Shown here: positions 12,190-18,576 of the stretch, piece after piece
How positions within the stretch are numbered: the first letter of the stretch is position 1
Layout of the letters: each line of letters opens with the position of its first letter
Origin: Candidatus Saccharimonadota bacterium
GTDB lineage: Bacteria > Patescibacteriota > Saccharimonadia > Saccharimonadales > UBA10212
Reading direction: 5' to 3'
Length of the DNA stretch: 43,783 nt
Assembly (NCBI GenBank): GCA_016187175.1
Contig: JACPKG010000001.1
Coordinates: 1 to 43,783 of the forward strand
Notes under the pieces: generated by a model
The model's database searches: none
Told to the model about the DNA's origin: nothing
Seen by the model: only the letters and a program-made list of their open reading frames with translations
Position numbers and translations under genes: made by a program

Positions 12190-12303
12190 ATGAATCCCGT
12201 TAGACCTCAAAAAACCTACAGTGTCTATTTATGCTTTGAAGCAAGCATGCGTGTTCAATCGTTAAACGTGGTACGGAAGTTAAGTGAGGTTCTAACGGGA
12301 TGA
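12190..12303 (+). repeat. Mini copy of the MNPVR...LTG inverted-repeat element; carries a 37-codon ORF
   Basis: ATCCCGTTAGACCTCA (12194-12209) / TGAGGTTCTAACGGGAT (12285-12301), one indel; ORF MNPVRPQKTYSVYLCFEASMRVQSLNVVRKLSEVLTG*. Confidence 0.75.
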
Positions 12304-13742
12304 AGAGCAACGCCTCGCTAATTTACAGTCTGATATTAGTGGTGGGCGATTTTTTAGCTTTGGTGGCAGCTTTTGTTTTCGCCTATGCAATTCGCGGCAC
12401 TTTAAGTACTGTGCCAGTAGCCCATCCAATTCCGGCCACAACTTACGTCAGTATTTTTCTGACGTTACTCCCCTTTTGGATTTTAATTTTTGCGCTACTG
12501 GGCCTTTACAATAGCTCTATCCAGGAAAAGCGTTTCAATGAACTTGGCCGTTTGCTGATTGGCTCTTTCGTCGGACTGCTTTTTGTTATTAGTTACGGCT
12601 ACGCCGTAAATAAGACGATCTTCCCGGCTCGACTGGTACCAGTTTATGGATTTGTTCTGGCTTTTTTGTTCTTGGTAATCTTTCGCAATCTTGCCCGTGC
12701 AGTGCGTGCCTATCTATATAAATACGATATTGGCATCACTAATATTTTAATCATTGGCAATACAAAGATTGCCACCGAATTAGTAAGAGCCCTATCGGAC
12801 AGTAAGATATCTGGCTACCGCATTGTGGGTATTGTTGGTAATAAATCTCACACGCCCGAGCGCTTCCCCCACATCCCAGTTTTCGACTCCTTTGGTGAGG
12901 CGGCAAAAAAGCTCCGCACCAACGATATTCATAGCATTGTCCAGACCGAACTCTATGCCGCCCAAGATACTAATAATGAGATGCTGGAATTTGCCCAAAC
13001 GCACCACATTGCCTATCGTTTTGTGCCTGGTAACAGTGAGCTCTTTGTCGGTAACATTGCGGTTGAATTGTTTCGATCACAAATCCCGGTCATTGCTGTC
13101 CACCAAACAGCTTTAATCGGCTGGGGCCGTATCATCAAGCGTGTATTCGATCTTCTGGTATCTGTAATTGCTCTGGTGATACTGTCCCCGCTATTGATAC
13201 TGATAAGCCTTCTAATATTAGTTTTCGATCCAGGCCCTATTATCTTTCAACAAAAACGAATCACTCGTTTCGACAATCGGTTTAAGGCATACAAATTTCG
13301 GACTATGAAACGGAAATATAGTAACCGAGGCCCCATTGTCGTATTTAAGGAACTGGGGCGTGAAGATTTGATCAAGGCTTATCAGGGCGCCCAGAAATTA
13401 ACTGACGACCCGCGTATCAGCTTAATCGGCCGATTTTTAAGACGCTTCAGCCTCGATGAACTACCTCAGTTAATCAATGTGGTTAAGGGCGATATAAGTT
13501 TGGTCGGACCGCGGGCAGTGGTGCCTGCTGAACTGAAGTATTATGCAAGTAAAAGTCCGATGCTGCTCAGTATCAAAACCGGTATAACCGGGCTTGCCCA
13601 GGTTAGCGGCCGTAGCAACTTAGACTACTATGAACGCGCCAAGCTTGACCTCTACTATATCCAGAATTGGAGTTTCTGGTTAGATCTTACAATACTTGTG
13701 AAAACCATAAGGGTGATTTTTAGGCGCGGCGGAGTTCGTTAG
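12300..13742 (+). CDS. Undecaprenyl-phosphate sugar phosphotransferase (polyprenyl glycosylphosphotransferase)
   Basis: 480 aa; N-terminal TMs, CoA-binding-like domain, KRVFDLLVSVIALVILSPLLI, FQQKRITRFDNRFKAYKFRTMK, RFLRRFSLDELPQLINVVKGDISLVGPRAVVPAE. Confidence 0.93.
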   Translation: MKSNASLIYSLILVVGDFLALVAAFVFAYAIRGTLSTVPVAHPIPATTYVSIFLTLLPFWILIFALLGLYNSSIQEKRFNELGRLLIGSFVGLLFVISYGYAVNKTIFPARLVPVYGFVLAFLFLVIFRNLARAVRAYLYKYDIGITNILIIGNTKIATELVRALSDSKISGYRIVGIVGNKSHTPERFPHIPVFDSFGEAAKKLRTNDIHSIVQTELYAAQDTNNEMLEFAQTHHIAYRFVPGNSELFVGNIAVELFRSQIPVIAVHQTALIGWGRIIKRVFDLLVSVIALVILSPLLILISLLILVFDPGPIIFQQKRITRFDNRFKAYKFRTMKRKYSNRGPIVVFKELGREDLIKAYQGAQKLTDDPRISLIGRFLRRFSLDELPQLINVVKGDISLVGPRAVVPAELKYYASKSPMLLSIKTGITGLAQVSGRSNLDYYERAKLDLYYIQNWSFWLDLTILVKTIRVIFRRGGVR

Positions 13743-15766: not shown

Positions 15767-15798
15767 AGTAACATAATCATTTGTTAATATAGTGTAGT

Positions 15799-15814
15799 GA
15801 ATCCCGTTAGAAGT
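15799..15814 (+). repeat. Solo left end of the MNPVR...LTG element
   Basis: GAATCCCGTTAGAAGT, identical to the left ends at 12193 and 17285 over GAATCCCGTTAGA; no right arm found downstream. Confidence 0.6.
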
Positions 15815-15824
15815 AAGTACTTTG

Positions 15825-17267
15825 ATGAAAGTTAACCCCCATATTTTTCGCGGTTATGACCTACGGGGCCTGGTTGGTGAAGACTTAACCCCGGAAGTCA
15901 ACCTGCATCTGGGCAAGGCTTTTGGTACATATTTAAAACGACATAACATCAAAGAGGCAGTCGTTGGTCACGACTGTCGGGCCACCAGCCCAACCTACAG
16001 CCAAAAAATAATTGAGGGACTTAATTGGGCAGGTATAGATGTAGTTGACATAGGTATGCAGCTGGTCGGCACATTTTACTGGTCGCAGTACCATTTCAAA
16101 CGACCCGGCGGTGTTTATATTACCGCCTCGCATAATCCCAAAGAGTTCAACGGCTGTAAATTCGCCAACGATTACTCTGAGACGTTAGTTTCCGAAGGCA
16201 TGCAAGCAATGCGTCGACTGGTTGAAGAAGAAGACTACGAACAGGGCGAAGAGCCAGGAAAAACTAAAACCGCAAGTGTTCAAAAAGCCTACTTTGCTGA
16301 TTTACTGAAACGTCTACACGTAACTAAACCGTTTAGGGTAGTGGTGGACTCCAGTCATTCAACTGCGGGAGCGATAGCACCGGAATTGTTACGCCGGACC
16401 GGTTGTGAAGTGATTGAATATAACACCAAGATTGATCCCTCTTTCCCTCTTGGCACGCCTGACCCTACGGAAACTAAGGTAATGGAGAGGCTACGCAAGG
16501 AAGTCCTAGAGTCCAAAGCGGATATTGGTTTTACTTACGATGCCGATGGGGACCGTATTGGTATAGTTGATGAGCGCGGCGGCATTATTTGGAACGACGT
16601 ACTAGTTGCCCTATTGGCCAGTGATGTATTGCGAGACCACCCCGGCGCCACCATTGTTTTCAATACTTTATGTTCAAAAGTCGTGCCGGAAACAATTAGC
16701 AAGGAAGAGGGTAAACCCTTTATGTGGCGCACTGGCCACTCTTTTATAAAGAAAAAGGGTCAGGAGATTAAATCAGCTTTTTCGGGTGAGTTATCCGGTC
16801 ATTTCTTTTTTTCGGCCGATTTTTACAATCACGATGATGGCCTATACTCAACACTGCGTCTCTTACAATTTTTATCGCGCACTAACCAAAAATTATCGGT
16901 GGCAGTGGCTTCCCTGCCACAATATATATCCAGCCCCGAGATCAAAGTCTTCTGTGCCGACCACCAAAAGGCTGCTCTTGTAGAAAAACTTGCTACCATC
17001 CTCAAAAAAGACTATCCCCATGCCGATGTGATTGATGACGAACGGGCTGGGGATGGTTTGCGGTTAGAGCTACAAGCCGCGATGTTCGTAGTGCGCTACT
17101 CCCAAAACGGTCCTTACCTAACCATCAAATTCGAGGCTAAAACTCAAGCCGAATATAATGATCTTCGTACCTATATTTCAAAACTTCTACATAATCAGTC
17201 TGAGGTTGGTTGGCAATCAGAGATTAACGTCAACGCCGAAGCCCTAGACCCAAAGTATAAGAAGTAG
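15825..17267 (+). CDS. manB: Phosphomannomutase/phosphoglucomutase
   Basis: HIFRGYDLRGLVGEDLTPEVNLHLGKAFGTYL, GVYITASHNPKEFNGCKF (phosphoserine loop), FTYDADGDRIGIVDE (metal loop), GELSGHFFF. Confidence 0.93.
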   Translation: MKVNPHIFRGYDLRGLVGEDLTPEVNLHLGKAFGTYLKRHNIKEAVVGHDCRATSPTYSQKIIEGLNWAGIDVVDIGMQLVGTFYWSQYHFKRPGGVYITASHNPKEFNGCKFANDYSETLVSEGMQAMRRLVEEEDYEQGEEPGKTKTASVQKAYFADLLKRLHVTKPFRVVVDSSHSTAGAIAPELLRRTGCEVIEYNTKIDPSFPLGTPDPTETKVMERLRKEVLESKADIGFTYDADGDRIGIVDERGGIIWNDVLVALLASDVLRDHPGATIVFNTLCSKVVPETISKEEGKPFMWRTGHSFIKKKGQEIKSAFSGELSGHFFFSADFYNHDDGLYSTLRLLQFLSRTNQKLSVAVASLPQYISSPEIKVFCADHQKAALVEKLATILKKDYPHADVIDDERAGDGLRLELQAAMFVVRYSQNGPYLTIKFEAKTQAEYNDLRTYISKLLHNQSEVGWQSEINVNAEALDPKYKK

Positions 17268-17281
17268 CTATACTTAAGGGG

Positions 17282-17563
17282 ATGAATCCCGTTAGAGCCA
17301 GCATGTTTTACATTTACGTGTTACGCAGCAAAAGGAGTAGGAAGTTATATACAGGCTTTGCGTCTGACCTACGGAAACGCTTGACTGAGCATCGTGACAG
17401 CAAGTCACCATACACAAGCAGTCGAGGACCGTACGAGTTGATATATTATGAAGCCTGCATGAATCGTAATGATGCGGCCGCAAGAGAAAAGTATTTAAAG
17501 ACAGGAACAGGCAAACGCTATTTGAAAAACAGAAACAAGCGTTTCCTGGCTCTAACGGGATGA
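17282..17563 (+). CDS. Single-domain GIY-YIG nuclease (UvrC N-terminal-like), carried by an inverted-repeat element
   Basis: 93 aa; FYIYVLRSKRSRKLYTGFASDLRKRLTEHRD, GPYELIYYEACMNRNDAAAREKYLKTGTGKRYLKNR. Confidence 0.92.
   Translation: MNPVRASMFYIYVLRSKRSRKLYTGFASDLRKRLTEHRDSKSPYTSSRGPYELIYYEACMNRNDAAAREKYLKTGTGKRYLKNRNKRFLALTG
17286..17561. mobile_element. GIY-YIG-encoding element bounded by 16-bp perfect inverted repeats
   Basis: ATCCCGTTAGAGCCAG (17286-17301) / CTGGCTCTAACGGGAT (17546-17561); ends recur at 12194-12301 and 15800. Confidence 0.7.
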
Positions 17564-18576
17564 AACTATTAGTAACGGGCGGCGCCGGATTTATCGGCTC
17601 CAACTTCGTGCACTACATTCTTAATAAATATCCTAATTACGCAATAAGCGTCGTTGATGCACTGACTTACGCTGGCGATAGGGCCAGGCTAGCAAATGTT
17701 GAAAATAAAATTTCATTTCATCAGGCCAACGTAGCCGATTTCGCGGCCATGGAAGAATTGACGAAAGGTACTGACACAGTTGTCCATTTCGCCGCCGAAA
17801 GCCACGTTGACCGTTCGATTGCCGACCCCAGCCCATTTTTAAATACCAACGTTTTGGGGACTGACGTCTTGGCCCGCGCCTTGCTAAAGAATAGCGTGAA
17901 GCGTTTCCATCATATTTCGACTGATGAGGTTTTTGGAACCCTGGAGCTAGACAGCCCGGATAAATTTAATGAGCAAACTCCCTACAATCCGCGCAGTCCT
18001 TATGCCGCCAGTAAAGCCGCCAGCGACCATATTGTTAGGGCTTACGGCGAAAGTTACGGCCTGCCCTTCACTATTACAAATTGTTCAAATAACTATGGGC
18101 CGTTTGATTCCCCCGGACGAGTAGTGCCGGTCTTTATAACAAATGCGCTGGAAGACAAGCCTTTGCCTATCTACGGTAAAGGCCAAGCCGTGCGCGATTA
18201 TCTTTATGTATACGACCATTGCACTGCAATTGATATGGTTCTACATAACGGTGTGCTTGGCGAGACGTATTGCGTCGGTGGCGGCGCCCAGCGCAATGGA
18301 CTCCAAGTCGCAGAAGCGATTTTGGACGCGCTTGGCAAGCCTAAAAGCCTGATACAATTTGTTGCTGATCGGCCAGGACATGATATACGCTATAACATTG
18401 ATCCAAGTTATATTCAGCAAAAGCTGGGCTGGAAACAAACTGTATCTTTTGAGGAGGGTATCGCTAAAACTCTCGAGTGGTACAAGGCTAACGAATCTTG
18501 GTGGCGGCCTTTTAAAGAACGGATGGATTTGATGCGCGACAAAGGTCTCTACAACACCAAGAAAGTGACAAGCTAA
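17560..18576 (+). CDS. rfbB: dTDP-glucose 4,6-dehydratase
   Basis: 338 aa; LVTGGAGFIGSNFVHYIL, HFAAESHVDRSI, HISTDEVFGTL, YAASKAASDH. Confidence 0.95.
   Translation: MKLLVTGGAGFIGSNFVHYILNKYPNYAISVVDALTYAGDRARLANVENKISFHQANVADFAAMEELTKGTDTVVHFAAESHVDRSIADPSPFLNTNVLGTDVLARALLKNSVKRFHHISTDEVFGTLELDSPDKFNEQTPYNPRSPYAASKAASDHIVRAYGESYGLPFTITNCSNNYGPFDSPGRVVPVFITNALEDKPLPIYGKGQAVRDYLYVYDHCTAIDMVLHNGVLGETYCVGGGAQRNGLQVAEAILDALGKPKSLIQFVADRPGHDIRYNIDPSYIQQKLGWKQTVSFEEGIAKTLEWYKANESWWRPFKERMDLMRDKGLYNTKKVTS

Follow-up and report, generated by a model that had tools for sequence, protein, structure and literature searches.

A start-codon-inserting element of Patescibacteria whose sole gene encodes a GIY-YIG nuclease

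The element at the rfbB start codon and its miniature copies

The window, meaning the whole stretch of 43,783 nucleotides analysed here, is contig C13 of a 664-kb genome, referred to below as the home genome. At 17282..17563 on the forward strand lies an open reading frame (ORF) of 93 amino acids for a GIY-YIG nuclease, which begins on the original start codon of the host gene rfbB (dTDP-glucose 4,6-dehydratase; 17560..18576, forward strand). The complete element occupies 17287..17560 on the forward strand (274 bp, TCCCGTTAGAGCC ... GGCTCTAACGGGA), running from TCCCG at the left to CGGGA at the right, and consists of perfect 13-bp terminal inverted repeats (TIRs), a 4-bp target-site duplication (TSD) and the nuclease as its sole gene. 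The boundary of the left TIR (17287..17299) was set by covariation over 112 elements described below, and the right TIR (17548..17560) ends in an A that now begins the rfbB start codon. The left TSD copy TGAA (17283..17286) makes up, with A17282, the original start codon ATG. The right copy TGAA (17561..17564) serves twice, its TG completing the restored ATG and its TGA being the stop codon of the nuclease ORF. At the right end of the element, the rfbB start codon has been rebuilt from the element's last base A and the duplicated TG, and it overlaps the nuclease stop as ATGA. This anatomy, including the duplication, is read directly from the sequence and is shown.

A preliminary description, made from the sequence alone, had placed a 93-aa GIY-YIG ORF at 17282-17563, beginning in a 16-nt arm and ending in its exact reverse complement. 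Both claims held: the ORF (MNPVRA...LALTG and stop) is present (PF01541, E 9.6e-16), and ATCCCGTTAGAGCCAG lies at 17286-17301 with its exact reverse complement at 17546-17561, and neither the window nor the 664-kb genome contains a further exact copy. The arm length held only in part, the real TIR being 13 bp. Pairing ends at 13 bp, the outermost A/T belongs to the TSD flank and the inner AG pairs by chance, and the 16-nt arms were rejected. The insertion, said to lie between manB and rfbB, is better put as lying within the rfbB start codon. The statement that the same end occurs at two other places in the window held in substance, one being a complete element (12195-12300) and the other a truncated one (about 15802-15823). 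That description had not recognised that the target is a start codon, that 4 bp are duplicated, how long the TIR really is or that miniature copies exist.

The complete miniature element (12195..12300, forward strand, 106 bp) occupies the start codon of a gene for an exopolysaccharide polyprenyl glycosylphosphotransferase (EPS sugar transferase, TIGR03025; 12300..13742, forward strand), with the TSD TGAA at 12191-12194 and 12301-12304. The truncated, short-type miniature (15802..15823, forward strand) is a left end preceded by GTGAA and lies where the phosphomannomutase gene starts. In this region (15797-15827) the listed TTG start of phosphomannomutase (15822) is probably wrong and the likely start is the ATG at 15825, with the truncated element just upstream.

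The core ATCCCGTTAGA gave 37 matches in the 664-kb genome, against 0 for the backwards control. The places carrying this core were aligned, without tiling the genome end to end, and yielded 18 complete elements, namely the 274-bp copy with the nuclease and 17 non-coding miniatures of 68-111 bp. The miniatures have the same TIR core and TSD as the nuclease element and meet the criterion for miniature inverted-repeat elements (MITEs). The TSD is perfect at 4 bp in 17 of the 18 and matches at 3 of 4 positions in the other; the sequences found are TGAA, TGAG, TGGA, TGGG and TAGA. Seventeen elements are on start codons, counting the second element at L034, whose host gene runs off the contig and is unreadable; the eighteenth is in-frame near the rpsB start. 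Host genes outside the window include gyrB, dnaG, pheT, gatC, murB, murJ and rpmJ. The miniature copies have diverged from one another, so current activity is not evident. The rpsB copy (L034, C18:1527-1596) is a 68-bp element which, at 72 bp including the TSD, adds 24 codons in-frame near the rpsB 5' end, within ribosomal protein S2.

The frame read from the original start codon was also followed. In the home genome it is open through 15 of the 16 short elements (stops by frame, 1/40/54), and it ends 4 nt before the rebuilt ATG or overlaps it, with TGA overlapping in ATGA in the nuclease copy and TAA 4 nt upstream in most miniatures. Such an arrangement fits the needs of translational coupling, which is an inference; coupling itself has not been shown. 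An open leader frame as a general law was rejected, since only 2 of 10 miniatures from other families have one. Coupling would therefore be a feature of these lineages and not universal. Gene calls are affected by the elements, in that spurious leader ORFs starting MNPVR... or MDPVR... are annotated and a GTG start can turn into ATG.

Relatives in other genomes, target choice and mobility

An ends-only scan of 84,980 species genomes returned at least 116 nuclease-sized stretches. The scan used a fixed length, and longer elements were not systematically covered. It gave 115 distinct elements, 112 of which were oriented via the nuclease motif. Patescibacteria account for most of the sources; a few others carry the names Omnitrophota, Planctomycetes, Desulfobacterales, Aminicenantes or Woesearchaeota, labels that could perhaps in part reflect binning errors. 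GIY-YIG ORFs with these ends were thus found in about a hundred other genomes, and the idea of the preliminary description that the ORF and its ends form one element was upheld.

An exact 4-bp duplication was present in 66 of the 112 elements from other genomes, and its borders were sharp. Left and right flanks were identical in 79-90 of 112 elements at the four TSD positions, compared with about 13-34 of 112 further out. The exception was the adjacent outside position (86/112), at which the A of the start codon, on the left, is compared with the terminal A of the element on the right. A 2-bp TSD (GA), suggested by the home genome, was rejected because TGAT, TGAG and GTG sites fix the length at 4 bp. 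Among miniatures of other families, 13 of 20 had an exact TSD and 15 of 20 had ATG at the right end. Separately, three miniatures of one genome (L282, L283 and L284 in G379) have the TSD TAGA/TTTA and a frame open throughout, suggesting in-frame inserts within genes.

The first 10 TIR positions were fixed by the search pattern, which left positions 11-13 for covariation. These three positions vary (GAT, GAC, GCC, GAA, CCx, AAG), yet they are complementary between the two ends in 98-99% of elements, compared with 80/62/46% at positions 11/12/13 in the shuffled control. Pairing drops to chance at position 14 over the 112 elements. The complementarity of the variable bases is shown; that paired change with free sequence reflects a stem, or two ends that are required to match, is inferred from it.

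Placement on start codons was quantified in the same set. Of the 112 elements, 106 have TG directly after the right end, giving ATG. An ORF of 50 codons or more begins at 103 of these 106 ATGs, compared with 28% of random nearby ATGs. The other two frames at the same places open such ORFs in 0/106 and 6/106. The nuclease ORF is co-directional with the host gene in the 106 elements having a right-end ATG, and this fixed orientation, like the placement itself, is shown. These statistics count related elements as independent. In the window, gene starts make up 40% of non-coding NTGR/ATGR sites by rough gene calls; the fraction observed is far above this, and the loss of gene-disrupting insertions by selection would not by itself account for it. 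The gyrB copy keeps GTG on its left flank and has ATG at its right end, and the element-free relative has GTG; a second GTG case is L141. The host genes are functionally unrelated to each other.

Sequences upstream of the targets showed a peak of -10-like TATAAT motifs 6-11 nt before the start, with 25 in that bin and 4-9 in the others (n=82); in the home genome 8 of 17 targets have the motif at this distance. Shine-Dalgarno motifs were scarce (14/83 targets, and 3/17 in the home genome). The targets may possibly be leaderless genes, a reading that rests on a rough background set and is only a lead.

For mobility, host-gene N-termini were used as probes in eight relatives and the gene starts were then compared. 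Empty sites whose upstream DNA matches the home genome up to the insertion point were found for gatC (L257), gyrB (L209, with GTG), dnaG (L195) and the 12195 site (L258), the last in a genome of the same genus. The murJ site is occupied in one relative and empty in others. The start of a PEGA-like gene (L014) carries a short-type element in the home genome and a long-type element in G002, and dnaG in G004 carries an element unlike that of the home genome (different-element sites: L254, L194). Different elements on one start codon in relatives indicate that the same start codon has been struck more than once. The preliminary description had looked to syntenic manB-rfbB junctions in relatives for an empty site. 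The element is absent from syntenic gene starts there; for the nuclease copy itself, rfbB starts are empty in family members, with weak flank similarity. Mobility and start-codon targeting are shown by this genome comparison.

A rival reading would be that the hairpins are regulatory or structural gene leaders spread by recombination, with the nuclease incidental. In its favor are the single orientation at gene starts, the TATAAT motifs 6-11 nt upstream of many targets, as for leaderless genes, and the frame-conserving leader ORFs of the home genome. Against it, mobile insertion is shown by the perfect TSDs, by the empty sites and by sister genomes in which one start codon bears different elements, the host genes have unrelated functions, and the elements are absent from most sampled species of the phylum. 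We regard this explanation as very unlikely.

The GIY-YIG nuclease and a proposed mechanism

The nuclease matches PF01541 at 58.3 bits against a gathering score of 22.6 and so meets the criterion for the GIY-YIG superfamily. Across 64 sequences, no variation occurs at residues Y12, Y23, G25, R33, R68 and E69, and almost none at H37 and N83. An ORF of at least 78 aa is intact in 103 of 113 oriented elements (the window included); its usual C-terminus, (S/A)LTG, is encoded by the right repeat and its TGA stop by the duplication. Pairwise dN/dS had a median of 0.13, with no value of 1 or more in 466 pairs. The nuclease is conserved and under purifying selection.

Profile searches placed it nearest UPF0213 (1zg2, E 6.5e-12), followed by SLX1 (E 4e-4). 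SLX1 is a branched-DNA nuclease. An AlphaFold2 model (pLDDT 84) gave the same order in Foldseek, 1zg2 and then SLX1 at probability 1.00 and E 2e-3 to 8e-2, with I-TevI behind. The criterion for a UPF0213/SLX1-like nuclease is met by sequence profile and fold jointly, the Foldseek E-values being modest. In NCBIfam there was no match of the nuclease above the curated cut-off, and PHROG matches were weak. A role in a defence system was rejected for want of a PADLOC match, phage carriage because the same end pattern had no match in IMG/VR, and a group I intron because no Rfam family reached its gathering score in the window. No known transposase (DDE, DEDD, HUH, serine, tyrosine or casposase) was found in the element, whose only ORF is the GIY-YIG gene; it is thus not an insertion sequence of any known enzyme class.

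The co-occurrence of nuclease and miniatures was examined in 379 other Patescibacteria genomes and is shown: miniatures are present in 6 of 9 genomes with a nuclease-size element and in 10 of 370 without (Fisher p=1.6e-7). Some genomes, for example G215 and G379, have miniature copies and no exact-match nuclease copy.

Taken as a DNA transposon, the element has the expected TIRs, TSD and precise empty sites (gatC, gyrB, dnaG and the 12195 site), and lacks a known transposase. We propose that it is likely a minimal start-codon-inserting DNA transposon mobilised by its UPF0213/SLX1-like GIY-YIG nuclease, the catalysis being inferred. The single-domain nuclease would mobilise the full copy and would also act in trans on the miniatures. 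Start codons within NTG-R-N, in most cases ATGA, would be the target, and strands opened 4 bp apart there would lead to duplication of TGRN. The terminal A of the element (TIR ...CGGGA) and the duplicated TG would then rebuild the host ATG, so that a GTG start would become ATG. The original start codon would now open an ORF within the element ending at, or no more than 4 nt from, the rebuilt start, and ribosomes could re-initiate on the host gene and keep it expressed via coupling; this maintenance of expression is inferred only. The protein is predicted to act on the paired ends and the start codon, with host repair finishing the reaction. Excision and integration by the GIY-YIG protein, recognition of the ends in paired form (hairpin or cruciform) and not by sequence alone, and completion by host repair are likewise inferences. 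Some points count against the proposal, among them the genomes with miniatures and no exact-match nuclease copy. To our knowledge, no single 93-aa GIY-YIG domain joins DNA, and no biochemical activity has been shown here. In addition, the GIY-YIG homing enzymes that have been studied leave 2-nt 3' overhangs and not a 4-nt stagger.

The preliminary description had called the locus a compact selfish element that has no enzyme but the GIY-YIG protein, which is supported by the relatives and the empty gene starts. Its label 'homing-type' is probably the wrong class, because the many unrelated sites and the TSD resemble transposition and UPF0213/SLX1 is closer than I-TevI. As a rival explanation, homing would mean that the nuclease makes double-strand breaks in start-codon sequences, and that repair by the host then brings in the element from an existing copy via flanking ATGA microhomology, without transposition chemistry. 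Points for it are that GIY-YIG is a classic homing-nuclease fold, that ATGR stands on both sides of most filled sites and that I-TevI is among the weaker structural matches. However, the 4-bp duplication takes its sequence from the target and not from the donor (TGAA, TGAG, TGAT, TGGA, TGCA, TGGG, TAGA), gyrB keeps GTG on the left while the right end supplies A, and nuclease-free miniatures with perfect TSDs are abundant. The sites also share only a start codon, so that a single conserved allelic target, as homing would have, is lacking. Homing is considered unlikely.

Another rival is that the TIRs are the substrate of an unseen transposase, with the GIY-YIG gene as cargo or helper. TIRs, a 4-bp TSD and miniature copies are typical of DDE transposons, and the genomes with miniatures and no exact-match nuclease copy speak for it as well. 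On the other hand, no element with these ends carried another enzyme, within a fixed-length search that leaves larger TCCCGTTAG elements outside it, and almost all nuclease-size elements carry GIY-YIG alone. Moreover, unrelated TIR types also enclose GIY-YIG genes, and the nuclease is under strong purifying selection and co-occurs with miniatures. This explanation, too, appears unlikely, and mobilisation by the GIY-YIG protein remains the preferred reading.

A bolder version of the preferred reading is possible, in which the elements would form an enzymatic class of transposon not known before. Their GIY-YIG nuclease, selective for structure, would see the paired TIRs as a stem, by their complementarity and not by the inner sequence, and insert the element at melted transcription starts that coincide with start codons, as in leaderless genes, with the start rebuilt so that essential genes tolerate the insertion. 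Sister lineages of this nuclease would place hairpins in the genes of structured RNAs (RNase P RNA, 16S rRNA), an entire superfamily thereby being adapted to do no harm at the RNA level.

In the literature searched, coverage of which is incomplete, neither a GIY-YIG-only transposon nor an element that targets and rebuilds start codons was found, and within that limit the kind of mobile element is likely undescribed. If the GIY-YIG protein is the transposase, DNA transposition gains an enzyme class in about 275 bp and 93 residues. Start-codon rebuilding explains how insertion on gyrB, dnaG, pheT, rpmJ and other genes can be non-lethal in the streamlined genomes of Patescibacteria.

Comparison with known systems

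The element shares with insertion sequences and MITEs its TIRs, short TSD, single gene, non-autonomous miniatures, scattered sites and empty sites in relatives. Unlike these systems, which use DDE, HUH, serine or tyrosine enzymes, its only enzyme is a GIY-YIG protein of 93 aa in about 275 bp, and it shows paired TIR variation at positions 11-13, a rebuilt start-codon target and fixed orientation. With free-standing GIY-YIG homing endonucleases of the I-TevI/Seg type it has in common an intergenic GIY-YIG gene and selfish spread; it differs in its TIRs, 4-bp TSD, many unrelated sites, miniatures, lack of an intron and UPF0213/SLX1-like structure. Penelope-like retroelements are mobile and use a GIY-YIG nuclease, whereas the present element is prokaryotic, lacks a reverse transcriptase and has symmetric TIRs.

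Rickettsia palindromic elements are palindromic repeats of about 100-150 bp that are inserted into genes and translated (PMC10969869). The rpsB copy of the home genome is such an in-frame insert, but in-frame insertion within coding sequence is not the rule here (17 of 18 at start codons, 1 in rpsB), and the present element has a start-codon target, a defined 4-bp TSD and an associated nuclease gene. The mycobacteriophage element MPME is an ultra-small mobile element that has short inverted repeats and a single small ORF; its protein is unrelated, its hosts are phages, and it is not known to target start codons.

Small GIY-YIG genes that are more distantly related have different inverted repeats around them (TAGTGAG..CTACTA, TCCRCC.., CCCCGTAGG..). 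Those of the TAGTGAG..CTACTA type are also on start codons, and two other types abut or lie within structured RNA genes, namely RNase P RNA in the home genome and 16S rRNA in G002. In the home genome, a broken GIY-YIG gene with one internal TAG (L006, C3:4333-4569, reverse strand), bounded by CCCCGCACATAACATTAC../..GTAATGTTATGTGCGGGG, directly adjoins the RNase P RNA core (gaggaaagtccgggc) and resembles an insertion at the P3 helix of rnpB. In G002 (L075, C3:769-1008), a GIY-YIG gene with long inverted repeats (atgcaagtcgagcg / gagcggcggacggctgag) lies in 16S rRNA near V1. At five further loci in relatives (L065, L066, L068, L069 and L073), tRNA genes share a short stretch with small GIY-YIG genes, several directly adjoining; tRNA genes may possibly be a further target class of such genes.

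GIY-YIG insertion sequences that are not introns and do not show homing-like spread have been reported in rRNA genes of CPR bacteria (PMC11270868), and the inserts at RNase P RNA and 16S rRNA are consistent with that report. In comparison with the start-codon element, those inserts are known only from rRNA genes and their mechanism is unexplained. They may conceivably form a branch of a wider family whose members have inverted repeats at their ends, and if the GIY-YIG protein is the transposase, the start-codon element offers an explanation for them.
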